64,000 bases of DNA from Burkholderia sp. MS389 (GTDB lineage Bacteria > Pseudomonadota > Gammaproteobacteria > Burkholderiales > Burkholderiaceae), in contig NZ_CP045996.1 in assembly GCF_016899425.1 (NCBI RefSeq), positions 620,001 to 684,000 of the forward strand. Reading direction: 5' to 3'. Position numbers and translations under genes: made by a program. Below, piece by piece: positions 7,647-37,878 of this stretch. The notes under the pieces are model-generated. The model made no database searches, had not been told where the DNA came from, and was given only the letters and a program-made list of their open reading frames with translations. The stretch's first letter is position 1, and each line of letters begins with the position of its first letter.

Positions 7647-7648
7647 GG

Positions 7649-10453
7649 TCAGCGCTCCTGTTTGCGCAGCAGGACGCCGGTCGTCACCATGATGACCGGC
7701 ACGGCGGCGAGCAGCGGCCAGAACTGGGACGACAGGTCGGCGAGCCCGAGCGCCTTGTTGTAGACGCCGCGGCTGATCGCGAGCATGTAGGTGGCCGGAT
7801 AGATCGTACCGATCCACTTGCCGCTGCCTTCGAGCGACGACAGCGGCGTGAGCAGGCCCGAGAACTGCACGACGGGGATCAGCGTGCCGACGATCGTCAT
7901 GAAGATCGCGGCGATCTGGCTGCGCGTGAACGTCGACGCAAACAACCCGATGCCGGTGGCGACGACATTGAAGATCAGCACCGCGGCGGCCAGCGTCGCG
8001 AAGCTGCCCTTGATCCGCACGCCGAACACGACGTCGGCCAGCACGACCATCAGCAGGAAATTCAGCATGGCCAGCATCACGTACGGCGCCTGCTTGCCGA
8101 GCAGGAATTCGGCGCGGGTCACGGGCGTCACGTACAGGTTGACGATCGATCCGAGCTCGCGTTCCCGGACGACGGCGAGCGCCGTCAGCATCGCGGGCAG
8201 CATCAGCAGCAGCATCGGCATGATCGCGGGAATCATCGCGGGCAGGCTCTTGACGTCCGGGTTGTACCGATAGCGGATCGCGACGTCGACTGCCGGGACG
8301 AGCGACACGCCGAGCCGGCGCTTCGCCTGATCGCGCAGCCAGTTCTCGTGCATGCCGGCCACGTAGCCGCGAATCGTTTCCGCGCGCATCGGCATCGCGC
8401 CGTCGACCCACGCGCCGATCTCCACGTGCCGGCCGCGGGCGACGTCGCGTGCGAAGCCGGGCGGGATCTCGATCGCGAGCGACAGCTGGCCGTTGCGCAT
8501 GCGGCGATCGATATCGCGGTCATCGGCAAGCTGGGCGCGCGGCACGAAGTAGCGGGAGCCCGCGAGATGCTGCGCGTAGTCCTGGCTCAGCATCGATTGA
8601 TCGCGATCGAGCACGGCGAACGTCAGGTTGTCCACATCCAGACTGATGCCGATGCTGATCACGCACATCAACACGAGCGAACCGAACAGCGCCAGCGTCG
8701 CGCGCAGCGGGTCGCGGCGCAGCTCCAGCACTTCGCGCCACAGGTAGCTGCCGGCGCGCGCCGGGCTGAACCAGGCGGCGCCGCGGCCGGCGTCGCTCGC
8801 GTCGAGCGACGCGGCGAGCCAGCCGGCGCCAGGTGACGTGTCCGTCGGTGCGCTGTCGCCGCGTTGCGCGTCGGTCAGGTAGCCGATGAACGCGTCCTCG
8901 AGCGTGGCGGCGCCGCGCAGGCGAACCAGTTCGTCCGGCGCGGCGCTCGCCAGCACGCGGCCCGCATGCATCAGCGAGATGCGGTCGCAGCGGGCGGCCT
9001 CGTTCATGAAGTGCGTCGAAATGAAAATCGTGACGCGGTCGTTGCGCGCGAGCTCGATCATCAATCGCCAGAAGTCGTCGCGCGCAACCGGGTCCACGCC
9101 CGACGTCGGTTCGTCGAGGATCAGCAGTTCGGGCTTGTGCACCATCGCGACGGCAAGGGACAGCCGCTGCCGCATGCCGAGCGGCAGGCGTTCGGGCAGC
9201 GCATCGAGTACGTCCGCGAGACCGAAGCGCCCGACCATTTCGTCGATGCGCGCGGGCAGGTCTGGTTCCGGCACGCCGAACAGGCGCGCATGCAGCACGA
9301 GGTTCTGCCGGACGGTCAGTTCGCCGTACAGCGAAAACCCTTGCGACATGTAGCCGACGCGCCTGCGCGTATCGATGTCGTTCGCGGCGACCGGCCGGCC
9401 GAACAGCGTCGCCGTGCCTTCGGACGCGGCGAGCAGGCCCGTGAGCATCTTCATGGTCGTCGATTTGCCGCAGCCGTTGGAGCCGAGAAAGCCGAAGATT
9501 TCGCCGCGGCGGATCTTCAGGCTCACATGGTCGACCGCGACGAAATCGCCGAACCGCATCGTCAGGCCGTCGGCCTCGATCGCGTAGCCGTCGGTCGCGT
9601 CGGGCTGGAACGGCGTGATCCGGATCGGCTGGTGCCCGTGCCGGCGCGCTTCCGGCAGCAACGCGATGAACGCGGCTTCCAGCGTGTCGCAGCCGGTGCG
9701 GGCGAGCAGGTCGCCGGGGCTGCCCGTCGCGAGCACGCGGCCGGCGTCCATCGCGATCAGCCAGTCGAAACGCCGGGCCTCGTCCATGTACGCGGTCGCA
9801 ACGAGCACGCTCATCGCCGGACGCGCGGTGCGAATACGGTCGATCAGTTCCCAGAACTGGGCGCGCGACAGCGGATCCACGCCGGTCGTCGGTTCGTCCA
9901 GGATCAGCAGGTCGGGATCGTGGATCAATGCGCAGCACAGGCCGAGTTTCTGCTTCATCCCGCCGGACAGTTTGCCGGCGGGGCGGTCGAGAAACGCATG
10001 CAGCCCGGTGCTGTGCGTGAGCGCGTCGATGCGGCGGCGTCGCTCGGCCGCATCGTGGCCGAACAGTCGGGCGAAGAACTGCAGGTTTTCCTCGACCGAC
10101 AGCGTCGCGTACAGGTTCCGACCCAACCCTTGCGGCATGTAGGCGATGCGCCGGCATACGCGTGCGCGGTGGCCGCGCGACGACAGGTCGCCATCGAGCG
10201 CCCATACGCGGCCCAGCTGGATCGCCCGTGCGCCGGACACGAGCGCGAGCAGGCTCGACTTGCCGACGCCGTCCGGTCCGATCAGCCCGACCATGCGGCC
10301 GGCCGGGATATCGAGCGTCACGTCGTCGAGCGCGCAGGTATCGCCGTAGCGCAACGAGACGCCCGACAGCCGGGCGACCACGCCCGATTCAACGGATGCG
10401 GGCGGACCTTCGCCCGCACCGGCACCGCTAGCGACGGGCAACGTCGCGTTCAT
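7649..10453 (-). CDS. RbbA-like fused double ABC ATPase-permease
   Basis: The 934-residue protein has two ABC ATPase domains followed by an ABC-2 permease. Domain 1 (about 25-260) has Walker [10 protein letters not shown] (59-67), signature LSGGMKQ and Walker [11 protein letters not shown]. Domain 2 (about 285-510) has Walker [10 protein letters not shown], a degenerate signature (LPLGMRQ) and [10 protein letters not shown]. The last ~370 residues hold an N-terminal membrane helix, an external domain and a helical bundle, similar to the next gene's product. This order and size match E. coli RbbA/YhiH, described as a ribosome-associated ATPase; here the neighbours (HlyD, outer membrane factor, YhhJ) argue for export. 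Its ATG overlaps the HlyD stop. Confidence 0.9.
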
Positions 10454-23345: not shown

Positions 23346-25568
23346 ATGAGCGGCAAGGACTGGACGAAGGACAACGCGATGCGCGAAGCGGTCGCGCATC
23401 GCACGGGCGACGCTTCGCAACCCGAATGGATGTCGGACGACGCGATGTCGCGGCGCACGTTTCTCCACAGTCTGGGCGCATGGGCGATGCTCGCCTGCGG
23501 CGGGACGTTCGGCGGTGCGAGCGCCGCATTCGCCGCGGTATCGCAGGGCTCGACGGCGGCCTTCGTCCATCCGGGCCTGCTGCATACGCAGGCGGATTTC
23601 GATCGCGTCGCGCAAAAGGTGATGACGCACGCGCAGCCGTGGTTCGACGGCTGGTCGGTGCTGATCGCGAACGGCCACGCGAGCCAGTCGTGGCAGCCGC
23701 GGCCGCAGGTCGAGATCGATCGCGGCGGCAGCGGGCCGCAGAACTACGGAATCCTGTACAACGACGTCGCCGCCGCCTATGCGTGCGCGCTGCGCTGGAA
23801 GGTGACCGGCGACAAGCTGTATGCGGACACGGCCGTGCGGATCATGAACGCATGGGCGGCGACGCTGAAGCGCCTGGGCGGCGATTCGAACGTCGACCTC
23901 GCGGCCGGCCTGTACGGCTACGAGTTCGCGAATGCCGGCGAGATCATGCGCGGCTATCCGGGCTGGGCGGCCGCGGATTTCGCCGCGTTCCAGCGGATGA
24001 TGCGCACCGTGTTCTACCCGATCAACACCGATTTCCTGCATCGTCACAACAATACCGAGATCACGCACTACTGGGCGAACTGGGACCTGTGCAATATCGC
24101 GTCGATCCTCGCGATCGGCGTGCTGTGCGACGACCGCGCGCTGTTCGACGAGGCGATCGACTATTTCCGCGCGGGGCCCGGCAACGGCGCGATACCGCAG
24201 GCGGTGTATTACCTGCATCCGGGCCATCTCGGCCAGTGGCAGGAGAGCGGCCGCGACCAGGGGCACAACACGCTCGGCATCGCGCTGGCCGGCGCGATCT
24301 GCGAGATGGCGTGGAATCAGGGCGTCGATCTGTACGGGTACGACAACAACCGTTTTCTTGCCGGCGCCGAATACGTCGCGAAAGCCAATTTGCGCCAATC
24401 GCCCGACGGCCCGTTCTTCGACGTGCCGTACGTCACCTACTCGAACGTGAACGTCACGCAAACGCAGTTCGCGACCGGCGGCCAGGGCGGGGTCCGGCCG
24501 TGCTGGGCGCTCGTGTACAACCACTACGTGAACCGCAAGGGGCTCGCGGCGCCGTGGTCGAAGCGCTTCGCGCTCGCCGCACAGCCCGAGGGTGGCGGCG
24601 GCAACTACGGGCCGAACAGCGGCGGCTACGATCAGCTCGGCTACGGCACGCTGATGTATACGCGCGATCCGGCCGGCCCGGCGCCCGCACCGAGCGGGCT
24701 CACCGCGCACGCGAGCGCCGGGCGCGCGGTGCTGTCGTGGTGGGGTGTCGCGAACGGCACGCACTATACGGTGAAGCGCGGCGCGGCGTCGGGCGGCCCG
24801 TACGCGACCGTCGCGACCGGCATCGTCGATCCGCTGACGTGGACGGACAGCCCGGCCGCGGGCACCTGGTATTACGTTGTGAGCGCAACCACGCCGACCG
24901 GCGAAACGCAGCATTCCGCGGAGGCGCGCGTGGTGACCGGCCAGCAGCTGCAGATCTGGCTGCCGTTCGACGAATCGCGCGGCGTCACCGCCGCCGATCG
25001 CAGCGGCAACGGGCACCCCGGTACGCTGGTCGGCGGGGCGGCGTTCGCGCCGGGGCGCAGCGGCAATGCGCTGTCGCTCGACGGTGCGGGCAGCTACGTC
25101 GCGCTTGCGGCGGGCGTGCTCGCCGACGTGTCGGATTTCACGGTCGCGGCATGGGTGTGCGCGCGCACCGTGCGGAAGTGGTCGCGGGTGTTCGACTTCG
25201 GCTCCGGTGTCGGGCGCTACATGATGCTCACGCCGCTCGCCGACACCGGCGCGCTGCGCTTCGCGATCACGGTCAACGGGGCGCACGGCGAGCGGCGTAT
25301 CGATGCGAAAGCGCCGCTGCGAGCCGCGCAGTGGACGCACGTGGCCGTCACGCTGGCGGGGACGACGGCCACGCTCTACGTCGACGGCGCAGCAGTCGGT
25401 AGCGCGGCCGACGCGTTTCTCGCGCCGTGGCGGCTCGCTCCGACCGCGAACAACTGGATCGGGCGGTCGCAGTTCGCGGCCGATCCGGCCTTCGACGGCT
25501 TGGTGAGCGATTTCCGCGTGTACCACGGTGCGCTGACGGCGGGGCAAGTCGCCGCGCTTGCGCGGTAG
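23346..25568 (+). CDS. Tat-exported alginate-lyase-like protein with Fn3 and LamG-like domains
   Basis: The 740-residue protein carries a twin-arginine signal (SRRTFLHSLG at 35-44, hydrophobic core to about 62, AFAA cleavage), so it is exported folded. Residues ~70-430 resemble the alginate lyase (PL5-like, alpha/alpha toroid) domain: the ESGRDQGHNTLGIALAGAICEMAWNQG segment and YDNNRFLAGAEYVAKANL are characteristic. Then come a fibronectin-III-like domain (about 440-535) and a C-terminal concanavalin/LamG-like fold (about 545-740; WLPFDESRGVTAADRSGNGHPGTL, WTHVAVTLAGTTATLYVDGAAVG). It probably binds and cleaves a uronic-acid polysaccharide outside the cell. Substrate is unknown; no polysaccharide operon is adjacent. 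Confidence 0.8.
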   Translation: MSGKDWTKDNAMREAVAHRTGDASQPEWMSDDAMSRRTFLHSLGAWAMLACGGTFGGASAAFAAVSQGSTAAFVHPGLLHTQADFDRVAQKVMTHAQPWFDGWSVLIANGHASQSWQPRPQVEIDRGGSGPQNYGILYNDVAAAYACALRWKVTGDKLYADTAVRIMNAWAATLKRLGGDSNVDLAAGLYGYEFANAGEIMRGYPGWAAADFAAFQRMMRTVFYPINTDFLHRHNNTEITHYWANWDLCNIASILAIGVLCDDRALFDEAIDYFRAGPGNGAIPQAVYYLHPGHLGQWQESGRDQGHNTLGIALAGAICEMAWNQGVDLYGYDNNRFLAGAEYVAKANLRQSPDGPFFDVPYVTYSNVNVTQTQFATGGQGGVRPCWALVYNHYVNRKGLAAPWSKRFALAAQPEGGGGNYGPNSGGYDQLGYGTLMYTRDPAGPAPAPSGLTAHASAGRAVLSWWGVANGTHYTVKRGAASGGPYATVATGIVDPLTWTDSPAAGTWYYVVSATTPTGETQHSAEARVVTGQQLQIWLPFDESRGVTAADRSGNGHPGTLVGGAAFAPGRSGNALSLDGAGSYVALAAGVLADVSDFTVAAWVCARTVRKWSRVFDFGSGVGRYMMLTPLADTGALRFAITVNGAHGERRIDAKAPLRAAQWTHVAVTLAGTTATLYVDGAAVGSAADAFLAPWRLAPTANNWIGRSQFAADPAFDGLVSDFRVYHGALTAGQVAALAR

Positions 25569-25939
25569 GGGCGCGCCGCACGCCAAGAGGGGTCGAGACG
25601 CCCGACGCCGGATTTCCGGCGGCGGGCGTTTTCGATTCCCGTTCGATTTTCCGGGCAGGTACCTTCAAGCCTGAGTACGGTCGGCGCAACGGCGCGGGCT
25701 CGGCGAAGGCGGTGATTGCGGACACGTATGTCGATGGCGGCAAGGCGGCCCAGGCGCGTGCGATCGGCGGGATTTGTCGCCGATACCGAAATGCAAGTGG
25801 CGAGCGTGACGGCACTGGCGCGCGCCGTTGCCGTTCCGATCCGATCGGGCCAGCAGTCGGCGCAATGCATGCCGGTCGTGACCGCTTCGCATGACATGCA
25901 ATACGCTATTCTGTCGTCCTCAACCGCCAGCCCGATCCG
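25569..25939. other. Intergenic region with terminator, then probable promoter of the two-component operon
   Basis: The first 65 bp hold the terminator listed separately. The remaining 300 bp up to the histidine kinase start contain no convincing gene. An AT-richer segment at about 25,890-25,920 (ACATGCAATACGCTATTCTGTC) is the likeliest promoter. Confidence 0.45.
25599..25634 (+). terminator. Rho-independent terminator after the lyase gene
   Basis: Thirteen-base arms (CGCCCGACGCCGG / CCGGCGGCGGGCG, one mismatch) surround a short ATTT loop, and TTTTCGATT follows. It starts 31 bp after the lyase stop. Confidence 0.75.
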
Positions 25940-27411
25940 ATGAAGCGTCCGTCGTTTTCCACCCAACTCGTCATGCTCTGGGCACTCGTCGCGTCGCTGT
26001 GCGCGACGCTGGTCGCGGTCGTCTGGGTTACGGCGACTTCCGCCGAGAGTCAGCAGGTGGCCAGCGCGAAGGCCGCCGGCGCGTCGGCCTGCGAAGCGGT
26101 CGCGTCGCGTTACGGCGCGTCTTCCGCGTCGGCGGGCGCCGGGCCCGCCCCGGACCTGATGCACGCGATCCTCGACATCGTGCTGTCCCGCGCGCCGGAC
26201 ATGGAGGGCGGGTTCTGGATGCCCGACGCCGCCCCGGCGGCGAGCGGCTTTCTCGCGTATTCCTTTCCGACTTATCAGGGCAGCGGCGTCAAACACGACG
26301 TTCCGGAAGCGGAAACGCCGCTGATCCTCCGCACGCTGCGCGCCGCGGCCGCGACGCATGCCGCGACGGCGAACGTCGTCGAAGGCGCGCAGGATGCGGT
26401 GATCGCGGCGGCCTGTCCGGTACGCGGCGGATCGGGGCTGTACGTGTGGATGCTGACGCGTGCGCGCCCGCCGCTGGGCCGGCACGGGGAATTGCTGGCC
26501 ACGGGCCTCGCGGCCGTGCTCGCGGTGATTCTGGCGATCGCGGCGGCGCTGGCCGTGGCGCTGCGCCGATGGAAGCGCAATCTCGCGCGGATCGAGAGCG
26601 GGCTCGGGCCCGACGGTCGCGAGCATCAGCTGCCGTACGTCGGCGAACCCGATCTCGACCGCGTCATCGATGCGTTCAACGAGCGGGCGCGGCGCGCCGA
26701 CCTGCTGCAACAGCAGGCCGACGAACTGCGCACGCGCCTCGCGCAGGCCGAGCGCTTCGGCATGCTGGGGAAGCTTGCCGCACAGGTCGCGCACGAGATT
26801 CGCAATCCGATGGGCGCGATGCGGCTGAAGGCGGAAAACGCACTGGCCGGCGATGGCCGACGGCAGCAGGACGCGTTGCGCGTGATCCTCGCGCAGATCG
26901 AGCGCATCGATGCGCAATTGTCGAGCCTGCTCGCGCTGACGCAGCCGGTGCGCCCGCATGCGACACGGGTCGACGTCGACGCGTGGCTCGCGCAGGTCGT
27001 CGATGCGCACCGCGAGCTCGCGCAGCGGCAAGCGATCGACCTGACGCTATCGCTCGCGGGGCAGGGCGAGCGGCTCGCTTGGCCGTCGGATCGTCCCGCC
27101 TTCGATCCCGACCAGATGCGGCGGGCGCTCGACAATCTGCTGCTCAACGCGCTGCACCACGCGGGCGACGGCGGCGCGGTCACGCTCGCCGCCGAGCGGC
27201 GCGCGTTCGCCGGGCGCGACTGGCTGTGCATCACCGTGTCGGACAGCGGCCCCGGCGTGCCGGCCGCGCAGCGCGAGCGGATTTTCGAGCCGTTCGTGAC
27301 GGGCCGCGCGGATGGCACGGGCCTCGGCCTCGCCGTCGTCCGCGAAGTGGCGGCGGCGCATGGCGGGCACGCGCGCCTCGACGGGGGCGCCGCATTCGTG
27401 ATTGAAATTCC

Positions 27412-27430
<19 letters not shown>
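25940..27430 (+). CDS. Membrane sensor histidine kinase (NtrB/AtoS-like)
   Basis: The 496-residue protein has a transmembrane helix at about 11-33, a periplasmic domain (about 34-180), a second helix (about 183-205), a HAMP-like linker and a kinase core. The phospho-acceptor is His285 in AAQVAHEIRNPMGAMRLKAE. The ATPase domain has N box DNLLLNALHHAGDG, G1 VSDSGPGVP, the F box IFEPFVTGRADGTGLGLA and the G2 loop. It overlaps the response regulator gene by 19 bp, so the pair is translationally coupled. The periplasmic sensor is not a domain I recognise; the signal is unknown. Confidence 0.92.
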
Positions 27431-28788
<1,358 letters not shown>

Positions 28789-28804
28789 TCGCGCCGTTTC
28801 GACC

Positions 28805-28819
28805 GTCGGGAATGCCGAC
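28805..28819. promoter_or_regulatory. Upstream activator site 1 for the sigma-54 regulator
   Basis: GTCGG-N5-CCGAC is an inverted repeat whose 15-bp core matches the second site at 13 of 15 positions. It is centred 32 bp (three helical turns) from that site, on the same DNA face. Confidence 0.7.
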
Positions 28820-28831
28820 ATCCGGTGAAGC

Positions 28832-28856
28832 GACGTGTCGGGAAATCCGACACGTC
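28832..28856. promoter_or_regulatory. Upstream activator site 2, perfect 10-bp inverted repeat
   Basis: GACGTGTCGG and CCGACACGTC are perfect complements separated by 5 bases. The centre is about 73 bp upstream of the -12 element, a normal place for an NtrC-type enhancer site. Confidence 0.8.
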
Positions 28857-28903
28857 AGACGTGCTTCGCGATTCGGCGCACGGCCACACAGTGCTTCTCA
28901 GGC

Positions 28904-28919
28904 TGGCACGGGTATTGCG
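28904..28919 (+). promoter_or_regulatory. Sigma-54 (RpoN) promoter, -24/-12
   Basis: TGGCACG-GGTA-TTGCG matches the RpoN consensus TGGCACG-N4-TTGC at every defined base with exact spacing. Transcription would start near 28,930, just before the first repeat-protein gene (start 28,957). Confidence 0.92.
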
Positions 28920-28956
28920 GATATCGATGCATCGCAACCCGTCGCCGGAGCCCGTC

Positions 28957-29733
28957 ATGAAGTCGTACCTGCCTGTCGTTCGATCGCGGTCGCGGCGCCG
29001 TGCCGCCGTTCACCGGTCGTATCGCATGCTCTGCGCTGCCGCACTCGTTGCCGTCGCAACAGTCAGCCTGGCGCAGGTGCCGCCGGCGCCGCGTGCGGAA
29101 GACCCGGCCGGCGCCATGCCGCCGCCTGCTCCTCCTCGGCCTCGTGCGCTTGTGCCTGCCGCGCCCGGAAACGACGCCGCGTCGGATGCGCTGGTTTCCG
29201 GCACGCTGTCGCGGCTGACGATCAATCCGGAAGGCGCCGTCGACGGCTTCGTGCTGACCGACGGCACGCTCGTCCGCCTGCCGCCGCATCTCGGTTCGCA
29301 ATTGACGGCGCTCGTGCGGTCGGGCCAGCGTGTCACGATAGCCGGCGAACGACACGTCGACGATGAAATCCGCGCACGCGTCGTCCGCAACGACGGCACC
29401 GGCGCGTCGCTGTCCGATCAGCCGCCCGCGCCCGTCGCACCCGTGCCGCCGATGCTGCGCGGCGTCAATCTCGCCCGCCTGAGCGTGTCCGGCGTCGTGC
29501 GCCGCGTGACGCACGCGCCGCGCGGCGAGCCGGACGGCGTGATGCTCGACAGCGGGACGATCGTCAAGCTGACCGTTCCGGCCGCGCAGCAATTCGGCGC
29601 GCTGCTCGTTCCCGGCGAGCGCGTGGCCGCGGTCGGTTACGGCACGCGCAATGCGTACGGCGAAGCGTTGCAGGCGACGGCGTTCGGCGCGCCGGGCCAT
29701 GTCGTGAACCTCTACGACGATGTCGCGCGCTGA
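28957..29733 (+). CDS. Secreted two-repeat protein of unknown function, sigma-54 controlled
   Basis: From the ATG at 28,957 (GGAG six bases upstream) the protein has 258 residues. The N-terminus is a signal peptide with a basic head (RSRSRRRAAVHR), hydrophobic core (LCAAALVAVATVSLA) and a likely cut after AQ; a Pro-rich linker follows. Two copies of an unrecognised unit come next: SGTLSRLTINPEGAVDGF...RLPPHLGSQL...VRSGQRVTIAGE, and SGVVRRVTHAPRGEPDGV...VPAAQQFGALLVPGERVAAVGY. The unit looks all-beta, possibly OB-like: strand, glycine turn, 'DG-hydrophobic-LxDG' hairpin, 'LPPH' segment, then 'G-x-x-V-x-x-x-G'. The next gene has two more copies. A second ATG 30 bp upstream is less well supported. 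Confidence 0.8.
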   Translation: MKSYLPVVRSRSRRRAAVHRSYRMLCAAALVAVATVSLAQVPPAPRAEDPAGAMPPPAPPRPRALVPAAPGNDAASDALVSGTLSRLTINPEGAVDGFVLTDGTLVRLPPHLGSQLTALVRSGQRVTIAGERHVDDEIRARVVRNDGTGASLSDQPPAPVAPVPPMLRGVNLARLSVSGVVRRVTHAPRGEPDGVMLDSGTIVKLTVPAAQQFGALLVPGERVAAVGYGTRNAYGEALQATAFGAPGHVVNLYDDVAR

Positions 29734-29775
29734 TCGCGCGACGCTATTCCCCCATCCATCGAAAGGAGTCCTGTC

Positions 29776-30321
29776 ATGCACTGGATCGATCCCGCGTGCC
29801 TGCCCGAAACGCGCGGCCGCGTCACGCAGTTCCTGCTCAATCCGCACGGAGAAATCGACGGCCTGATCCTGAACGGCGACCTCCAGGTGCACGTACCACC
29901 GCATCTGGGCCGCGAACTGGTGCGTCATGTCGCGGTCGGCGACCGCATCCGCGTGCGGGGCGTCAAGCCGCGTCGCGCGGCGATGATCGCGGCCGTGCAA
30001 CTGACCGGTCGCGGCGGCATCGACATCATCGACGCCGGGCCGGAGCACGCCGTCCCGAAGCCGCCGCGACCGCCTCGACAGCCGATGGAATCGAGCGGCG
30101 AAGTCGCGTTCGGGCTGCATGGCCCGAAAGGCGAGTTGAACGGTGCGTTGCTGACGAGCGGCGTCGCGCTGCGGGTGCCGCCGCATGCGGCTGAAGCCCT
30201 GCGCGACTATCTGCTTCCCGGCGTCCATGTGCAGGCGTGGGGCCACGGCGTCGTCACGCCGCACGGCACGACGCTCGACGTGAGCGAGATCGCCGAGCTC
30301 GTCGATGCGGATGCCGAATGA
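29776..30321 (+). CDS. Two-repeat protein of unknown function, partner of the preceding gene
   Basis: The 181-residue protein lacks a signal peptide and so appears cytoplasmic. It contains two copies of the same unit as the preceding gene product: RGRVTQFLLNPHGEIDGLIL...VPPHLGRELVRHVAVGDRIRVRG (about 9-60), and SGEVAFGLHGPKGELNGALL...VPPHAAEALRDYLLPGVHVQAWGHGVVTPHG (about 103-165). A Pro-rich hinge lies between them. It has a strong ribosome site (AAAGGAG), starts 42 bp after the previous stop, and is followed 21 bp later by an MFS gene. I recognise no named domain; binding of a small ligand, nucleic acid or metal by an OB-like fold is only a guess. Confidence 0.8.
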   Translation: MHWIDPACLPETRGRVTQFLLNPHGEIDGLILNGDLQVHVPPHLGRELVRHVAVGDRIRVRGVKPRRAAMIAAVQLTGRGGIDIIDAGPEHAVPKPPRPPRQPMESSGEVAFGLHGPKGELNGALLTSGVALRVPPHAAEALRDYLLPGVHVQAWGHGVVTPHGTTLDVSEIAELVDADAE

Positions 30322-30342
30322 TCGTGTGACGGTGAGACGCCC

Positions 30343-31608
30343 ATGAGACCGGCACGCGCGCTCGAGGCGCTCAACTTCTTCCTGGCCGACGTGCAGGCCG
30401 GCATCGGCCCGTTCATCGGCGTCATCCTGCTGTCGCGCGGCTGGGGCGCCGATGCGATCGGCTCGGTGATGACGCTGGCCGGGCTCGCCGCGATGGCCGC
30501 GACGCCGTTGGCCGGCGCGCTCGTCGATGCGGTGCGCGCGAAGCGGGCGCTGATCGTCGTGGCGACCGCGGCGACGGCGCTTGCGTCGCTGGCGATGCTG
30601 TTCGTCCACAGCTATCCGGCGGTGGCGGCGTCGCAGATCCTCGCGGCGGTCAGCGGCGCGGTGCTGGCGCCGGCCGCCGCGGGCGTGACGCTCGGCATCG
30701 TGCGCCGGCAGGGTTTCGACCGGCAGTTCGGGCGCAACCAGATGGCGAACCACGCCGGCAACGTCGCCGGGGCGGCGCTCGCCGGGTGGCTCGGCTGGCA
30801 TGTCGGGTTCGATGCGGTGTTCGCGCTCGTCGGCGTGTTTACGGTCCTCGCGATCGTGAGCACGTTGGCGATTCCCAGGTACGCGATCGATCATGCGTCC
30901 GCACGTGGCCTCGATCCTGCCGGTGCTGCGCCGGCAACGGACGCGACGCATCCCGATGCGTTCGACGCGGCGTCGACGTCGCGCGTCGGCGGCCTGCGCA
31001 CGCTCGCCGAGAACCGGCCGCTGGTGCTGCTCGGCGCGTCGCTCGCGCTGTTTCATCTCGGCAACGCCGCGATGCTGCCGCTCTACGGGATGGGCGTCGT
31101 CGTCACGCATCGCAGCAACGCGAGCGCGTTCACCGCGCAGACGATCGTCATCGCGCAGTGCGTGATGATTGCGGCGGCGTGGCTCGCGCCCCGGCTGATC
31201 CGCGCGCACGGTTACTGGCGGGTGCTGCTGTGCTCGTATCTCGTGCTGCCGGTGCGCGGGCTGGTCGCCGCGACGTGGATGAGCGAAGCGGGCGTGTGGC
31301 CGGTGCAGGTGCTCGACGGTATCGGCGCCGGTCTGCAAAGCGTGGTCGTGCCCGCGCTCGTGGTGCGCCTGCTGCATGGCTCCGGCCGCGTGAACGCCGG
31401 GCAGGGCGCCGTCGCGACCGCGCAGGGCATCGGCGCGGCGCTCAGCCCGGTGCTGGGCGTCATGCTCGCGCAGCACTTCGGCTATCCGGCCGCGTTCGTC
31501 GTGCTGGGCGCCGTGTCGACGGGCTCGCTCGCGCTGTGGCTCGGCCATGCGCGATCGCTGAGCAGCGCGTGCGGCAAGCCCGCCGATTTATCGGCGACAT
31601 CGTCGTGA
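30343..31608 (+). CDS. MFS transporter
   Basis: The 421-residue inner-membrane protein has about twelve hydrophobic segments with a central loop (about 185-215) between the halves. The cytoplasmic A-motif region after helix 2 reads ATPLAGALVDAVRAKRAL, a looser form of GxLaDrxGrr. Helix 5 carries NHAGNVAGAALAGWLGW. No signature gives a substrate. It is the third gene after the sigma-54 promoter, 21 bp behind the second repeat protein, and thus probably exports or imports the compound the system handles. Confidence 0.85.
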   Translation: MRPARALEALNFFLADVQAGIGPFIGVILLSRGWGADAIGSVMTLAGLAAMAATPLAGALVDAVRAKRALIVVATAATALASLAMLFVHSYPAVAASQILAAVSGAVLAPAAAGVTLGIVRRQGFDRQFGRNQMANHAGNVAGAALAGWLGWHVGFDAVFALVGVFTVLAIVSTLAIPRYAIDHASARGLDPAGAAPATDATHPDAFDAASTSRVGGLRTLAENRPLVLLGASLALFHLGNAAMLPLYGMGVVVTHRSNASAFTAQTIVIAQCVMIAAAWLAPRLIRAHGYWRVLLCSYLVLPVRGLVAATWMSEAGVWPVQVLDGIGAGLQSVVVPALVVRLLHGSGRVNAGQGAVATAQGIGAALSPVLGVMLAQHFGYPAAFVVLGAVSTGSLALWLGHARSLSSACGKPADLSATSS

Positions 31609-31645
31609 CAGCGATGTCGATTCCCCTGCCTCCGTCCACTTGCCC

Positions 31646-32899
31646 ATGAATCCTGTTTCGCTTGCCTGGCTGATTTCCGCGCTCGCCACCGCGGGCGTCA
31701 TCACGCGCCCGTTCGGCTGGCCCGAGGCCACGTGGGCCGTGAGCGGCGCGCTGCTGCTGGTCGGGTTGAACCTGTTGCCCGTCGCGCAGGCGCTGGACGC
31801 CGTCGCGAAAGGCGGCGACGTGTACCTGTTCTTGACGGGCATGATGCTGCTGTCCGAGGCGGCCCGTCGCGAGGGGCTGTTCGACTGGGTCGCGACGCAC
31901 GTCGTCAATCTCGCACAGGGATCGCCGCGGCGGTTGTTCGCGCTGATCTACGCGGTCGGTGTCGTCACCACGGTGTTCCTGTCGAACGATGCGACCGCCG
32001 TCGTGCTGACGCCCGCGGTCCTGGCCGCCGCGCGCCGCGCGAAGGCCGATCCGATGCCGCTGCTGTACAGCTGTGCGCTCGTCGCCAATGCCGCGAGTTT
32101 CGTGTTGCCGATTTCGAATCCCGCGAACCTGGTGCTGTACGGCGCGCACATGCCGGCCCTCGGCGTCTGGCTCGCGCACTTCGCGGCGCCGTCCGTCGCG
32201 TCGATCGCGTGCACGTTCGTCATGCTGCGGATCGTGCAGCGACGTGCGCTTTCCGGCCGTTGTGAGTCCGCGCTGCCGGTGCAGCCGCTGACCGGCGGCG
32301 GCCGCATCGCGCTGGCAGGCATCGCCGCAACGGCCGTCGCGCTGATGGCGGTATCGATCGCCGATCGCCCGCTCGGGTTGCCGACCACGCTGGCGGGTGT
32401 CGTCACGGTCGCGTGCGTGGTGATGCGGGATCGCGCGGCGGGCGTGCCGATCGTTCGCGCGATTTCATGGAGCGTGTTGCCGCTCGTCGCGGGGCTGTTC
32501 GTCGTCGTCGAGACGCTCGACCGGACCGGCGCGGTGCGCGCGCTGGCGGGGCTGCTACACACGCTCATGCAAAGCGGCGAGCATGTCGCGGCGGCCGTAG
32601 CCGGCGTCGCGGTCGCGCTGGTGTCGAACGGGGTCAACAATCTGCCCGCCGGGCTGATCGCGAGTTCGACGATCCACGTCGCGCACAGCCCGCGAACGGT
32701 GGTCGATGCAATGCTGATCGGCGTGGATCTCGGCCCGAACCTGTCGATCACCGGATCGCTCGCGACGATTCTGTGGCTGACGGCGATCCGGCGCGAAGGG
32801 CTGCAGGTCGGTTTCCGCGCATTCCTCGCGGTCGGCGCGTGCGTGATGCCGCCGGCGTTGCTGCTCGCGCTGGGCGCGCGGTTCGTGGTCGGCGGCTGA
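31646..32899 (+). CDS. ArsB/NhaD-like ion permease (SLC13/IT superfamily)
   Basis: The 417-residue membrane protein has ten or more hydrophobic segments. Ion-transporter superfamily motifs are present in each half: GVVTTVFLSNDATAVVLTPAVLA with FVLPISNPANLVLYG, and later VSNGVNNLPAGLIASSTI with LGPNLSITGSLATILWL. The paired SNDATA and SNGVNNLPA sequences are those of ArsB-type arsenite permeases. There is no arsR, arsA or arsC here, so arsenite is not assured; another oxyanion or a dicarboxylate is possible. It starts 37 bp after the MFS stop and is the fourth gene of the sigma-54 operon. The ATG at 31,646 is used; a TTG lies 6 bp upstream. Confidence 0.83.
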   Translation: MNPVSLAWLISALATAGVITRPFGWPEATWAVSGALLLVGLNLLPVAQALDAVAKGGDVYLFLTGMMLLSEAARREGLFDWVATHVVNLAQGSPRRLFALIYAVGVVTTVFLSNDATAVVLTPAVLAAARRAKADPMPLLYSCALVANAASFVLPISNPANLVLYGAHMPALGVWLAHFAAPSVASIACTFVMLRIVQRRALSGRCESALPVQPLTGGGRIALAGIAATAVALMAVSIADRPLGLPTTLAGVVTVACVVMRDRAAGVPIVRAISWSVLPLVAGLFVVVETLDRTGAVRALAGLLHTLMQSGEHVAAAVAGVAVALVSNGVNNLPAGLIASSTIHVAHSPRTVVDAMLIGVDLGPNLSITGSLATILWLTAIRREGLQVGFRAFLAVGACVMPPALLLALGARFVVGG

Positions 32900-32935
32900 C
32901 GCGCGATGCGCGTCGCGTCAACCGTCCGGGCCGGC

Positions 32936-35041
32936 TTAGAACGAGTAAGCGAGCGACGCGAACAGGCTGCGCGGCGCGCCCGGCGCGACCCACAGGCTGT
33001 TGTACGAGCTGACGTAGGTGGTGCGATTGAACAGGTTGTTCAGCACGACCGACGCGCGCAGGTGCTTGTTGACCTGAACGTAGCCGTTGAGCTGCACGGT
33101 CGCGTAGGCCGGCAGCTCGAAGCCGTCCTGCGTGTTGGCCGTGTTGCCGGCGCGGCGCCCGACGTAGATCACGCCGGCGCCGGCGCCGGCCTTGTCCGCG
33201 AACGGCAGGGTCGTCTCGTACATCAGCAGCGCGCTGCCGCTCAGACGCGGCACGTCGACGAGGCGTGAGCCGGGCGCCAGCACGGTGTCGCGCGTGACCT
33301 CGGCGTCGACGTACGCGAAATTGGCGATGCCGCGCAGGCCGTGGCCGAGATCGCCGCTCCATTCGAATTCGACGCCGCGGCTGCGTACTTCGCCGGCCGC
33401 GCGCGAGAAGCCGGCGTTCGCCGGATCGGCGGTGAGCACGTTGCGCTTGGTCACGTAGAACGCGGAGACGGTCGTGAGCGAGCGCGCGCCCGCCCATTTC
33501 GCGCCGGCTTCGTAGCCGTGGCCCTTTTCGGGATCGAACGCGTTGCCGCCGACGTCGGCGCCGTTGTTCGGCCGGAACGAATACGCGGTGTTCGCATAGA
33601 ACGACCACGCGGGGCTCATTTCATACACGACGCCGATACGCGGGCTCACCGCGGTCTGCAACTGGCTCGTCGTCACGCCCTTCAGGCGGTTGTCGATCGA
33701 CTGGTGGAAGCGATCCCAGCGCAGCCCGGCCAGGATCTTCCAGTGCGGCCCGAACGCGAGCGTGTCCTGCGCGTAGACGCCTTGTCCGTTATCGCGTTCG
33801 AGCAGGTTGGTCGCGGTGCGCGGCGTCGGCGCGGGCTGGCCGTACACCGGATCGAAGATGTCGATCGCATACGGCGCCGCGGCGCTCGGGGTGGAGCGCG
33901 CGACGAACTGGTCGTAGTTGAAGCGATACGCATCGACACCCATCACGAGCGTATGGCCGATACCGCCCGTGCGGAACGAGCCGGTGGTTTCGACGCGGCC
34001 CTGCAGGTCGTTCGAATGAAACGCGACTTGCCGGTAGCGGCGCCACAGCGTGCGGCCGTCCGGCTGCAATGCGAATGCCTCGGACGAGCGCCCCGACAGG
34101 TCGGTGTTGCGTTGCGCGACGCCCGCATTGACCGACCAGCTGGAATCGATGCGATGCTCGAGCGTGAACTGGTGGCCCGTGTTGCGCACGTCGTAGTCGC
34201 CGTCGCGCGGCTCGCCGAGAAAGCGCGACGTGGGGATCACGCCAAGCTGGCCGTTGACCGCCAGCACGCCGCGATCGAGCGGCGCGCGCTGACGCGCGCT
34301 CTCGAATTCGTAGTGCAGCGTCGTGTCCGCGCCGATGTCCCACGTGAACGACGGCGAGAACAGGTAGCGTTTGCTCGACACCGTGTCGCGAAAGCTGCCG
34401 TTGTTTTCGTTCATCGCGACGAAGCGGTACGCGAGCGATTTCGTGACGGGGCCGGTCGAATCGAGGGTCTGGCGCAGTGCGCCGTAGCTGCCGGCCGATA
34501 CGCCGATGGTGTTCGCGCGTGCAAACTGCGGCTGCTTCGTCGTATAGCTGATGATCCCGCCCGGATCGCCGCGGCCATACAGCGCGGATGCCGGCCCCTT
34601 GAGCACTTCCATGCGCTCGAGGTTGACGGTGTCGCGCGGCACGCTCATCCCGCGATTCCACGAAAAGCCGTTGACCAGGTAGTCGGTGCCGGACGTGTTG
34701 CCGTCGCCGGCGAAGCCGCGCACCGCGTAGTTGTCCCACAGGCCGCCGAAGTTGTTCTGGCGCGAGACGCCCGCGACCCAGTCGTAAAGATCGTCGCCGC
34801 GCGTGGCGGCCACGGTCTGGATCAGCTTCGTGTCGACGCTGCTGACCGCGAACGGAATCTCCATCACGTCGGCCTCGCTGCGCGTCGCGCTCGTCGATTC
34901 GCGCGTGCGGAACGGCGCCGTCGCGCGTTGCGCGGAGATTTCGATGGTGGGCAGCGACGTTTCCTGCGCGTCGGCGGCGCCCATGCCGGTCGTGCCGACG
35001 ACGATGGCCATCGGCGCGGCCGCCCAGTTCCTCCTGCTCAT
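32936..35041 (-). CDS. TonB-dependent siderophore receptor
   Basis: The 701-residue protein has a signal peptide (cut near ADA-QET), a plug domain (about 45-165) and a 22-strand barrel ending in Phe (SLFASLAYSF), the outer-membrane insertion signal. Family motifs include IPFAVSSVDTKLIQ, NFGGLWDNYAVRGF, MEVLKGPASALYGRGDPGGIISYTTKQP and the C-terminal FNRTTYVSSYNSLWVAPGAPRSL. It takes up a ferric siderophore using TonB energy. No FecR-type signalling extension is present, since the mature protein starts directly at the plug. Start 35,041 is preceded by AGGAGAGGT. A Fur-like box lies about 95-115 bp upstream. Siderophore identity cannot be read. Confidence 0.93.
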   Translation of the reverse strand: MSRRNWAAAPMAIVVGTTGMGAADAQETSLPTIEISAQRATAPFRTRESTSATRSEADVMEIPFAVSSVDTKLIQTVAATRGDDLYDWVAGVSRQNNFGGLWDNYAVRGFAGDGNTSGTDYLVNGFSWNRGMSVPRDTVNLERMEVLKGPASALYGRGDPGGIISYTTKQPQFARANTIGVSAGSYGALRQTLDSTGPVTKSLAYRFVAMNENNGSFRDTVSSKRYLFSPSFTWDIGADTTLHYEFESARQRAPLDRGVLAVNGQLGVIPTSRFLGEPRDGDYDVRNTGHQFTLEHRIDSSWSVNAGVAQRNTDLSGRSSEAFALQPDGRTLWRRYRQVAFHSNDLQGRVETTGSFRTGGIGHTLVMGVDAYRFNYDQFVARSTPSAAAPYAIDIFDPVYGQPAPTPRTATNLLERDNGQGVYAQDTLAFGPHWKILAGLRWDRFHQSIDNRLKGVTTSQLQTAVSPRIGVVYEMSPAWSFYANTAYSFRPNNGADVGGNAFDPEKGHGYEAGAKWAGARSLTTVSAFYVTKRNVLTADPANAGFSRAAGEVRSRGVEFEWSGDLGHGLRGIANFAYVDAEVTRDTVLAPGSRLVDVPRLSGSALLMYETTLPFADKAGAGAGVIYVGRRAGNTANTQDGFELPAYATVQLNGYVQVNKHLRASVVLNNLFNRTTYVSSYNSLWVAPGAPRSLFASLAYSF

Positions 35042-35134
35042 ACCTCTCCTTTTCGTGTCGTTCGCGTTCGGGCACGGCGGGCGGCCTTGCGCCGACATCT
35101 GTGTTCCAAACAGTACATTTGCGCGGCAATTTAA

Positions 35135-35155
35135 TGCAAATGAGAGGCATTTGCA
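35135..35155. promoter_or_regulatory. Fur-like box upstream of the siderophore receptor
   Basis: TGCAAATG-N5-CATTTGCA is a perfect 8-bp inverted repeat. It agrees with the betaproteobacterial Fur pattern GCAAATGA-N3-TCATTTGC except in the centre. It lies 94 bp before the receptor start on the minus strand, in a position suited to iron-dependent repression. Confidence 0.7.
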
Positions 35156-35371
35156 ATCGTAATTTTGAGAATGGATGCGAGAAGGGAAACGGTGCGCGTC
35201 GCGGACGCGGTCGATCGGGCGTAGCGGTTTCGTGAAATTCCGAATGGTGGGAAATGTGTCGTGTCGTGGTGGCGATCGTATATCGCCTCAACATCTGCAA
35301 TATGGGAAATTGGCAAGAAATATCGGGTAAACGTGGACCTTGGTGAAGTCATGGAATGTGAATTGGGTTGT

Positions 35372-35401
35372 TTGACAAATCCCGTAATTCGGGATTAAAG
35401 T
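35372..35401 (+). promoter_or_regulatory. Sigma-70 promoter with palindromic operator in the spacer
   Basis: A consensus -35 (TTGACA, 35,372-35,377) and a -10-like TAAAGT (35,396-35,401) are 18 bp apart. The spacer is almost entirely filled by the inverted repeat AATCCCG-N5-CGGGATT (35,378-35,396). A protein bound there would block RNA polymerase. The same palindrome recurs at 55,117. Confidence 0.75.
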
Positions 35402-35435
35402 AAAAACACTTCAGCCAAACCCGTCGAGCAGCCGC

Positions 35436-37016
35436 ATGAACATCCCACAGTTGGACAGCGATACCGAAGCAAGAAGCGGGGCGAGCGTCGTGCTCGCCAC
35501 TGCGCGAGACGCGGGCGTCGACGTCTGTTTCGCCAATCCCGGCACGACCGAGATGCCGTTCGTCGGTGCGCTCGACACCGTGGCCGGCGTGCGGTCGATC
35601 CTCGGGCTGTTCGAGGGCGTGTGCACGGGCGCGGCCGACGGCTATGGCCGCATGACCGGCAAGCCCGCGATGACGCTGCTGCATCTCGGGCCCGGCCACG
35701 CGAACGGCATTGCCAACCTGCACAACGCGCGCCGCGCCCGCACGCCGATCCTGAACATCGTCGGCGATCACACGCGCGCGCATCTGAAGTACGACGCACC
35801 GCTCACGTCCGACATCGAATCGCTCGCCCGTCCGGTGTCGGTGTGGTATCGCAGTGTGGCGCGCGACACGGATCTCGCGACGGATACGGCCGATGCGATT
35901 TCGGCCGCGATGGGCACGCCGCGCGGCGTCGCGACCCTCGTGCTGCCCGTCGATCTCCAGTCGGCCAGCGTGCGCGGCGCGGCGTGGCCCGCCGTCGTAC
36001 GCCCGGCCGCGGTGTCGTTCGACGCCGCGCGGGTCGAACAGGTGGCCGATCTGCTGCTCGGCGGTCATCGCGCCGTCCTGCTGATGGGCGCCCGCGCGCT
36101 GTCGGCGCGCGGGCAGCGGGCGGCGGCACGCATCGCGGCGGCCACCGGCGCGACCTGTTTCAGCGAAACCTTTCCTGCGCGGGCGGAGCGCGGCGGCGGC
36201 TTGCCGGACATCGACCGCCTGCCTTATTTCCCCGAGCCGGCGCTCGCGGCGCTGGCCGGCCGGCGCGTGGTGCTGGCCGGCGCGCTCGCGCCCGTCACCT
36301 ACTTCGGCTACGACGGCATTCCGGGCGAACTTGCGCGGCCCGAGGACATCGTGACGCTGGCAACACCGGGCGATGCGGCGGACGACGCGCTGGAGGCGCT
36401 GGCCGATCGCATCGGTGCGGCGGCGAATGACGATGGCGTGCACGTCGAGCGCTGGCGCGTGGAGGACGGCCCGCTCACGCCGCAGGCCGTCGGCCGCGTG
36501 CTCGCGAATGCGCTGCCCGACGACGCGATCGTGTCGATCGAAGGCGGTACGTGCGGCTACCCGTTCGTGACCGCATCGGCGCGCGCACGTCGTCACACCA
36601 TTTTGACGAACACCGGCGGCGCGATCGGCCAGGGCCTGCCGGTGGCGCTCGGCGCCGCCGTCGCGTGCCCGGACCGCCGCGTGTTCGCGCTGCAGTCCGA
36701 CGGCAGCGCGCAATACACGATCCAGTCGCTGTGGACGATGGCGCGCGAGCGTTTGCCGATCGTGATGCTGATCGCATCGAACCGGCGCTACGGCATCCTG
36801 CAGACCGAACTCGCGCGCAGCGGCCTGCCGGCCGACACGCCGCACGCGAGCCGCCTGACGCAACTGGACGATCCGCCGATCGACTGGATCGCGCTGTCGC
36901 GCGGCTACGGCGTGCCGGCCGAACGCGTGGGCACGACGGAAGCGCTGGTGCAAGCGCTCGACAACGCGCTCGCGCATACCGACGGGCCGACGCTCATCGA
37001 AATGCAGTTGTCCTGA
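35436..37016 (+). CDS. Thiamine diphosphate-dependent enzyme, acetolactate synthase/benzoylformate decarboxylase superfamily
   Basis: The 526-residue protein has the three-domain ThDP layout. The Pyr domain has catalytic Glu60 in GLFEGVCTGAADGYGRMTGKPA. A central domain (about 185-330) follows, then the PP domain with GGAIGQGLPVALGAAVACPDRRVFALQSDGSAQYTIQSLWTMARERLPIVMLIASN; the Mg/ThDP motif is SDG...N instead of GDG...N. No FAD-binding signature or regulatory partner suggests housekeeping acetolactate synthesis. It is the first gene of a nine-gene catabolic operon, so decarboxylation or carboligation of a 2-oxo acid, or cleavage of a C-C bond, is likelier. Substrate unknown. Confidence 0.85.
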   Translation: MNIPQLDSDTEARSGASVVLATARDAGVDVCFANPGTTEMPFVGALDTVAGVRSILGLFEGVCTGAADGYGRMTGKPAMTLLHLGPGHANGIANLHNARRARTPILNIVGDHTRAHLKYDAPLTSDIESLARPVSVWYRSVARDTDLATDTADAISAAMGTPRGVATLVLPVDLQSASVRGAAWPAVVRPAAVSFDAARVEQVADLLLGGHRAVLLMGARALSARGQRAAARIAAATGATCFSETFPARAERGGGLPDIDRLPYFPEPALAALAGRRVVLAGALAPVTYFGYDGIPGELARPEDIVTLATPGDAADDALEALADRIGAAANDDGVHVERWRVEDGPLTPQAVGRVLANALPDDAIVSIEGGTCGYPFVTASARARRHTILTNTGGAIGQGLPVALGAAVACPDRRVFALQSDGSAQYTIQSLWTMARERLPIVMLIASNRRYGILQTELARSGLPADTPHASRLTQLDDPPIDWIALSRGYGVPAERVGTTEALVQALDNALAHTDGPTLIEMQLS

Positions 37017-37065
37017 TCGCACAACGCGCTTCTTTCCTTAATCCCGACTCTCACCTTTCATCGAC

Positions 37066-37878
37066 ATGGATCTGCAACTGCACGGAAAAGCCGCGTTCAT
37101 CACCGGCGGCAGCATGGGCATCGGCAAGGCGGTCGCGCTCGAACTGGCGCGCGAAGGCGTCAACGTCGCGATCGCCGCGCGACGCATCGAACACCTCGAA
37201 GCGGCGGCCGCCGAGATTCGCACGACGCTCGCGCCGCTCGGCGACGCGGCCGGCGCGATCCTGCCCGTCACGGTGGACACAACGGACATGGCGTCGATCG
37301 AAGCGGCGATGGCCGCGTGCGTCGAGCGCTTCGGCCGGCTCGACATCCTGCTGAACGGCGCCGCGCATCCGGGCGGGCTCGTGCGCGCCGAACTCGAACA
37401 CGCTGACCCGGAGGGACTGCTGCAGGATATCGACATCAAGGTGGTCGGCTACCTGCGCTGCGCGAAGGCGGCCGCACCGTACATGCGGGCCAACGGCTTC
37501 GGCCGGATCGTCAACATCGGCGGCCTGACGGGCCGCGGCAGCAAGCAGCTGTCCGGCATGCGCAACGTGGCGATCGTGCACCTGACCAAGACGCTGTCCG
37601 ACCAGCTCGGCCCGTTCGGCATCACGGTCAACACGATTCATCCGGGCGTCGTCGAGACGCCGCACATCCACGAGCTCTACGAGAAGGAAGCGCAGAAGCA
37701 GGGGCTCACGGCCGCGGAAGTCGAGGCCAACTACGTGAAGGTCACGCCGATCCGCCGCGTGCTGCAGCCGGAAGAAATGGGGTGGATCGTCGCGTTTCTC
37801 GCGTCGCCGAAGTCCGGCTCGATCACCGGCGAGTCGATCGGCTGCGACGGCGGGCTCACGCGCGGCATTTTTCTCTGA
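37066..37878 (+). CDS. SDR-family protein lacking the catalytic Ser-Tyr-Lys
   Basis: The 270-residue Rossmann protein has an intact cofactor loop TGGSMGIG (13-20) and the usual SDR strand order, ending in ITGESIGCDGG. The catalytic residues are missing. The Ser strand reads IVNIGGLTGRG where IVNISS is normal. Where YxxxK should stand, the sequence is SGMRN, followed by the normal VAIVHLTKTL helix, so Tyr is Ser and Lys is Asn. NNAG is changed to NGAA. It probably binds NAD(P) but may use other chemistry, such as C-C bond hydrolysis, dehydration or isomerisation, or serve as a partner. It starts 49 bp after the ThDP gene without a clear ribosome site. Confidence 0.82.
   Translation: MDLQLHGKAAFITGGSMGIGKAVALELAREGVNVAIAARRIEHLEAAAAEIRTTLAPLGDAAGAILPVTVDTTDMASIEAAMAACVERFGRLDILLNGAAHPGGLVRAELEHADPEGLLQDIDIKVVGYLRCAKAAAPYMRANGFGRIVNIGGLTGRGSKQLSGMRNVAIVHLTKTLSDQLGPFGITVNTIHPGVVETPHIHELYEKEAQKQGLTAAEVEANYVKVTPIRRVLQPEEMGWIVAFLASPKSGSITGESIGCDGGLTRGIFL

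Follow-up and report, generated by a model that had tools for sequence, protein, structure and literature searches.

Introduction

Sigma-54 two-component pairs that adjoin their target genes are a known kind of regulatory system. A locus of this type was analyzed in a window of 64,000 nucleotides from Burkholderia sp. MS389 (GCF_016899425.1) which spans positions 620001–684000 of contig C3 (NZ_CP045996.1) in a genome of three contigs and 7.75 Mb. Genes for a sensor histidine kinase and an NtrC-type response regulator are followed by paired predicted enhancer palindromes, a predicted sigma-54-type promoter, and genes for two OB-fold proteins (OB1 and OB2), a major facilitator superfamily (MFS) transporter, and an ArsB/CitMHS-type permease. 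The switch architecture can be assigned with high confidence from sequence comparisons, and the locus as a whole probably constitutes a mobile, self-regulated sigma-54 module for the sensing and export of a small, likely anionic compound.

Passages of two reports give the recognition site of the GlrR/QseF regulator as TGTC-N10-GACA (PMC4987338, PMC8745638), and an excerpt of another describes QseG as a periplasmic partner of the E. coli kinase QseE (PMC6075780). The window pair resembles QseEF/GlrKR in combining a kinase with an NtrC-type regulator and in having TGTC...GACA sites ahead of a sigma-54 promoter. However, the spacer of the window sites is 9 bp, one base shorter than in the GlrR site, the regulator falls short of the GlrR/QseF equivalog cut-off of NCBIfam (332.3 vs. 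763 bits), and the predicted window targets include transporters whereas the reported targets of GlrR are glmY and rpoE. No QseG-like gene was seen beside the window module. A second comparable system, ZraSR, is a sigma-54 pair that is presented in part of PMC4987338 as responding to envelope stress. ZraSR-ZraP also couples a sigma-54 two-component pair to an adjacent exported protein, and the ZraS and ZraR models match the window proteins, although below the NCBIfam cut-offs (132.5 vs. 479 and 353.1 vs. 760, respectively). Unlike the case of ZraP, the exported protein in the window is a tandem OB fold and the operon additionally carries transporter genes. Sections of two further reports describe two-component control of a periplasmic protein in Vibrio and characterize SipA as a periplasmic peptide-binding stress protein (PMC5636140, PMC6370654). 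OB1 and OB2 are akin to SipA and other periplasmic OB proteins, as well as to the DUF5666 and PF01336 families, in possessing OB-type repeats, but differ from these in having two barrels per protein and in the adjacency of exported and cytoplasmic homologs.

The window regulator possesses the receiver domain, the sigma-54 AAA+ domain with a GAFTGA loop, and the Fis-type helix-turn-helix domain of NtrC-type enhancer-binding proteins, and does not reach the NCBIfam equivalog cut-off for NtrC itself (397.8 vs. 558.6 bits). The sensor domain of the kinase looks Cache-like and includes two invariant cysteines, which suggest a disulfide or thiol-dependent sensor. No description of the operator, the regulon, or the OB pairing was found in those parts of the open-access literature that are reached by text searches. 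The terms arsenic, MFS, major facilitator and metallophosphoesterase are absent from the main text of an RpoN study of P. phymatum (PMC5979394), and the portions of B. cenocepacia transcriptome work compared without J2315 locus tags of the genes contain no passage tied to the operon (PMC3244429). As proposed in the initial annotation of the window, the transport module lies outside the NtrC-type regulons known to us. The formerly orphan regulator gains a predicted operator and regulon, which opens the way to reporter screens for the signal and the substrate.

Conservation of the Control Region and Module

Both palindromes conform to YGTC-N9-GACR, with the 9-bp spacer at each window site. In agreement with the initial annotation, these are paired inverted repeats whose 15-bp cores are identical at 13 of 15 positions and which are 32 bp apart. 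The core of the downstream element TGGCACGGGTATTGC fits the -24/-12 consensus, and the base after the core is G instead of A/T. If, by convention, the last C of the -12 element is numbered -12, transcription would start near position 28930 and the sites would be centered near -86 and -118. Because of this predicted start, the OB1 start codon at 28957 is preferred over the in-frame ATG at 28927.

Palindromes with no more than one mismatch are confined in the 64-kb window to these two, at least two arise in 4 of 100 shuffled sequences, and taken alone the palindromes are only mildly unusual. Exact copies of TGGCACGN4TTGC number 12 genome-wide compared with 8 for the reversed control, for which reason the core by itself was not accepted as evidence. 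A search pattern that joined one site to the promoter produced 48 matches in 45 of 299 Burkholderiaceae genomes, and the reversed pattern produced none. Twenty regions hand-picked from these 48 matches were retrieved, with coding-looking matches (G245, G186, G158, and G227) left out, and 19 of the 20 hold module genes, which is accordingly a biased rate; the neighbors of the single miss (L144) were read by us as glnK/amtB. In combination and in their conservation, the predicted sites and promoter exceed chance, and the -24/-12 element with conserved upstream enhancer sites is that of a sigma-54 promoter as judged by sequence.

Within the genus, 16 of 65 genomes, MS389 among them, encode an OB2 homolog, and homologs were also recorded for 33 named loci from Burkholderia, Caballeronia, Paraburkholderia, Robbsia, Trinickia, Noviherbaspirillum, and Bradyrhizobium. 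Forty-seven comparison loci were selected through OB2 homology after removal of six repeats of the same genomes (L063–L068); two of the 47 (L044 and L057) are from strains of one species, B. stagnalis. The kinase and regulator accompany OB2 in 40 of the 47, and these 40 loci include MFS in 39 instances, OB1 in 35, and the ArsB-like gene in 25. Among 15 Burkholderia relatives the kinase, regulator, OB2, and MFS genes are each present in all 15, OB1 in 12, and the ArsB-like gene in 13. When each of the 40 loci was searched over its whole length for sites 18–36 bp apart with the inner site 64–74 bp from the -24 element, 36 possessed two sites and the promoter. The pattern was not found at three loci on uncut contigs (L072, L074, and L078) that have OB2 without the kinase and regulator. 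Three relatives that belong to the same order but to a different family also have the kinase-regulator-OB-MFS arrangement. In B. barranii the kinase and regulator genes are accompanied by genes for two hypothetical proteins, an MFS transporter, and an anion transporter, and the locus has paired sites with a spacing of 22 bp and a promoter distance of 69 bp.

Conservation of individual columns was assessed with upstream stretches from the window and 12 Burkholderia relatives (L048–L059, including L053) which were cut without reference to any motif. Invariant columns numbered 19 of 24 in the half-sites and 9 of 9 in the promoter, compared with 8 of 82 among the other columns between site 1 and the -12 element (Fisher p = 1e-14, a guide only because neither the columns nor the related sequences are independent). 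This replaced a count with motif-cut stretches (nine sequences: 22/24, 9/9, and 20/82), in which L053 was unmatched and which was set aside as partly circular. The initial annotation had named beforehand the conservation of repeats and promoter in gene-keeping relatives as the point by which its proposal could be refuted; these elements are conserved, and its view of an operon with a sigma-54-type control region of its own is supported. The comparisons show that the kinase, regulator, predicted sites, predicted promoter, and operon form one conserved unit, and the arrangement of the switch is retained by many related soil bacteria.

Spacing of the Enhancer Sites

The geometry of the control region was compared in 51 distinct promoters that were retrieved with a pattern fixing the palindrome spacer at 9 bp. 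The inner site is located 68 (27 promoters), 69 (18), or 70 bp (6) from the -24 element in a search that allowed 64–74 bp. The two sites are separated by 22 (39 promoters), 23 (2), 31 (1), or 32 bp (9), where 18–36 bp was allowed, and thus fall into classes of 22/23 bp (41) and 31/32 bp (10) that differ by about one helical turn. Two Burkholderia loci (L060 and L061) each have one site with a spacer of 10 bp.

In a regulator tree of 65 rows, 15 of which belong to neither class, the 13 rows with 31/32-bp spacing make up one side of a single branch whose support (94/99) is just below the star of the tool, and all are from Burkholderia. Spacing class requires one change on this tree, and none of 500 shuffles was equally low. 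Both Bradyrhizobium rows have 22-bp spacing. The simplest history would be a single event in the 31/32-bp lineage that inserted about one DNA turn between the sites and left the promoter side as it was. For the 22-bp type, identity between the sites is 72% when one is reverse-complemented and 57% in direct orientation; the corresponding values for the 32-bp type are 77 and 82%. The sites in three Burkholderia loci (L060–L062) are 21 or 22 bp apart and their regulators nest among those of Caballeronia and Paraburkholderia type, which indicates two module lineages within Burkholderia; transfer is a possible cause of the second. The shift from 22 to 32 bp with a near-fixed promoter distance of 68–70 bp offers a natural experiment on the pairing of enhancer-binding proteins on DNA.

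Transporter Genes as Probable Targets

The predicted promoter is not restricted to the position that it occupies in the window. The MFS gene in L087, L095, and L137 is divergent from the kinase gene and has a two-site promoter of its own, L062 has a second two-site promoter before MFS, and L138 has one site by pattern before MFS. In L140 the promoter precedes genes for a phosphoesterase, an ArsB-like protein, and a YdcZ-type (DMT) protein in a stretch with no kinase or regulator; the latter two are encoded in L139, the other locus of the same genome. In L132 the promoter stands before a run of OB1 fragment, phosphoesterase, MFS, ArsB, and DMT genes. As the same promoter stands separately before MFS or a phosphoesterase-ArsB operon in relatives, the transporters are likely to be true targets. 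The earlier statement that all targets are contiguous consequently applies to the window, but not to L087, L095, L137, and L140.

Metallophosphoesterase and YdcZ-type genes, assigned by Pfam, are located within the operon or divergent from it in Caballeronia, Paraburkholderia, and Robbsia. Each was recorded at six of the 47 loci, and YdcZ is a putative exporter by Pfam annotation. Groups of two or three genes from the set of MFS, ArsB-like, phosphoesterase, and DMT also occur, with no such kinase-regulator pair beside them, in Sphingomonas, Novosphingobium, Acetobacter, Aureimonas, Rhizobium, Shinella, and Spirosoma, such that this company of transporter genes reaches the Bacteroidota.

Additional genes were observed beside certain modules. 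In L158, a relative within the order, an apparent anion permease frame is located between the regulator and OB1 at about 6900–8640, with elements resembling -24/-12 sequences by eye before both the permease and OB1. A protein predicted to be a serine hydrolase with the beta-lactamase fold is encoded after the module in the Caballeronia-like loci L077, L079, and L133 (PF00144 in L133, by similarity or reading in the others), and a short CHASE3 protein is encoded beside the module in L081 (Pfam), L039 and L167 (annotated), and L132 (by reading).

OB-Fold Proteins

OB1 and OB2 had been regarded initially as representatives of a new repeat type, but are instead tandem OB folds with weak matches to the Pfam OB and DUF5666 models. 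The barrel and the structural match of an OB fold were both recovered, with SSB/PriB-like barrels. When DUF5666 was compared with an alignment of 36 OB1 proteins, 24 matched weakly (E up to 0.5, best E 1.4e-4) and the window copy was unmatched. Window OB1 has no Pfam match and window OB2 has a weak OB-fold match below the Pfam cut-off. A search by sequence of solved chains with an OB2 profile yielded nothing better than E 0.23. OB1 and OB2 of one relative share 34% identity (E 5e-27). Exported OB1 could be a partner of the sensor, by analogy with the coupling of QseG to QseE, or could bind the exported compound.

Two genomes from the same phylum, of 2 Mb and low GC content (L159 and L160), also encode an OB1-like protein, in stretches in which no kinase-regulator pair was found; these homologs were set aside. 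The OB1-like gene in L159 (6297–7061, reverse complement) is just upstream of genes that we read as encoding F0 ATP synthase subunits.

Proposed Mechanism and Alternatives

The Cache-like periplasmic domain of the kinase may detect a small compound or a redox change, whereupon phosphoryl transfer to the regulator would promote assembly of its AAA+ domains, as is familiar for this protein family. Two regulator dimers are predicted to occupy the two YGTC-N9-GACR palindromes on the same face of the DNA, and the resulting hexamer would open the RpoN promoter 68 bp downstream. OB1, OB2, the MFS carrier, and the ArsB-like permease would then be produced jointly, a co-regulation that is backed by the separate promoter copies in relatives. 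The transporters may expel a small, probably anionic or thiol-reactive compound from the cytoplasm, with exported OB1 and cytoplasmic OB2 acting as binding, buffering, or sensor-coupling partners on either side of the inner membrane. Export is judged somewhat more probable than uptake since YdcZ is a putative exporter, the solved structure nearest to the MFS protein by sequence is NorA (E 9e-4), and the nearest solved relative of the permease is ArsB. A more elaborate scheme, of which no description was found in the open-access papers searched, is conceivable but unlikely: the two homologous tandem-OB proteins, one at each face of the inner membrane, would hand a small phosphorylated or anionic compound to an MFS carrier and an ion-transporter-superfamily permease in a mobile export system that is switched by its own sigma-54 pair, and whose enhancer sites record one insertion of about one DNA turn. 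If this scheme were true, the insertion would amount to a natural experiment on how helical phasing affects assembly of the hexamer.

Several observations weigh against the sense-and-export interpretation. Transport direction and substrate are read from distant homology. Four of the 40 loci do not have the full promoter pattern: one site is detected in L053, L080 has both sites with a promoter outside the pattern, and L070 and L082 have a distal site 90–91 bp from the promoter with the proximal site outside the pattern. L090 has OB1 and OB2 with one site 91 bp before the -24/-12 element and no kinase or regulator in the stretch. More distant relatives show looser geometry, with distances of 80 and 101 bp between the sites and the -24 element in L155 and no match in L156–L158. 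The ArsB-like gene was not seen in 15 of the 40 loci, some of which are truncated at a contig or locus end, and OB1 is missing from five, so that neither gene is indispensable. No companions are annotated beside the homologous permeases of Xanthomonas sacchari and Ensifer adhaerens. The permease also scores higher with the Pfam CitMHS model (4e-40) than with ArsB (PF02040, 5.3e-23), which is compatible with carboxylate uptake. A permease encoded on B. cenocepacia plasmid NZ_CP091015.1 (L043, 4869–6068) is 80% identical over 85% of the window protein; MFS, phosphoesterase, and DMT companions are not annotated beside it, and its neighbors are annotated as succinate-semialdehyde dehydrogenase, an aspartoacylase-like protein, and a cupin, a setting that fits catabolism and suggests an organic-acid substrate for this copy. 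An uptake system in which the Cache-like sensor detects a carboxylate in the manner of CitA/DcuS, and the CitMHS-type permease and MFS protein import organic anions for growth, is nevertheless doubtful for the module. No catabolic enzyme family is fixed beside it among the layouts listed, for which gene finding was crude, the recurring companions are instead the phosphoesterase and the putative exporter, the MFS protein is nearest to NorA, and the two OB-fold partners would be left unexplained.

A genuine arsenic or metalloid resistance operon under a two-component switch would accord with the Pfam ArsB score, which is above the cut-off (82.5 vs. 22.2), with the arsenical pump membrane protein 10tp as the solved structure nearest to the permease by sequence (E 1.7e-24), and with records that annotate an arsenic transporter. 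The permease shares a superfamily with ArsB arsenite permeases, but the curated NCBIfam cut-offs for ArsB are not reached (151.9 vs. 457 and 129 vs. 415). Neither arsR nor arsC is annotated near homologous permeases in ten neighborhoods outside the full module, among which the plasmid gene tables are incomplete. Moreover, the host genome has a separate Acr3 on another contig, near which are frames that we read as arsR, arsC, and arsH. An arsenic role is thus highly improbable. The earlier description of the permease as ArsB-like stands by Pfam, whereas its hint of metal or oxyanion transport is weak, and the label of arsenic transporter may be wrong for this group of permeases. Also unlikely is a response to envelope stress with OB1 as its chief product, in which OB1 would be a periplasmic stress protein similar to the Vibrio OB-fold protein SipA or to enteric ZraP and the transporters would be accessory. 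In most layouts compared, the promoter is immediately followed by the OB genes, and OB1 was read by eye as an exported protein with a Pro-rich linker. ZraSR (PMC4987338, in part) and, in sections of the Vibrio reports, the two-component-controlled periplasmic protein and peptide-binding SipA (PMC5636140, PMC6370654) provide precedents. However, the five loci without OB1 keep the rest of the module, MFS is retained in 39 of 40, and Methylocystis has a kinase-regulator-MFS-anion transporter-DMT order with no OB genes annotated between.

Module Coordinates and Neighboring Genes

The features of the module are collected in Table 1. The end of the regulator gene matches the position given in the initial annotation.

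Table 1. Genes and predicted control elements of the module, in window coordinates.
Feature	Position	Strand	Description
Sensor histidine kinase	25940..27430	+	Two membrane helices flanking Cache-like periplasmic domain; HisKA, HATPase_c
NtrC-type response regulator	27412..28788	+	Pfam Response_reg, Sigma54_activat (3.9e-70), HTH_8; GAFTGA in translation
Distal enhancer palindrome CGTCGGGAATGCCGACA (predicted)	28804..28820	+	From sequence; conserved among relatives
Proximal enhancer palindrome TGTCGGGAAATCCGACA (predicted)	28836..28852	+	68 bp from -24 element; conserved among relatives
Sigma-54-type -24/-12 promoter TGGCACGGGTATTGC (predicted)	28904..28918	+	9/9 core columns invariant in 13 Burkholderia sequences
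OB1	28957..29733	+	Exported (signal peptide by eye); Pro-rich linker; two OB-type repeats
OB2	29776..30321	+	Tandem OB fold; export signal not seen by eye
MFS transporter	30343..31608	+	Pfam MFS_1 (4e-31)
ArsB/CitMHS-type permease	31646..32899	+	Open reading frame opens at TTG 31640; ATG 31646 likelier start

No Rfam match was obtained at gathering thresholds in window positions 25000–33500. Upstream of the kinase gene, positions 23388–25565 encode an alginate-lyase domain and a concanavalin-like (Laminin_G_3) domain. Positions 32936–37878 hold a convergent gene for a TonB-dependent receptor, followed by genes for a thiamine-pyrophosphate enzyme and a short-chain dehydrogenase.

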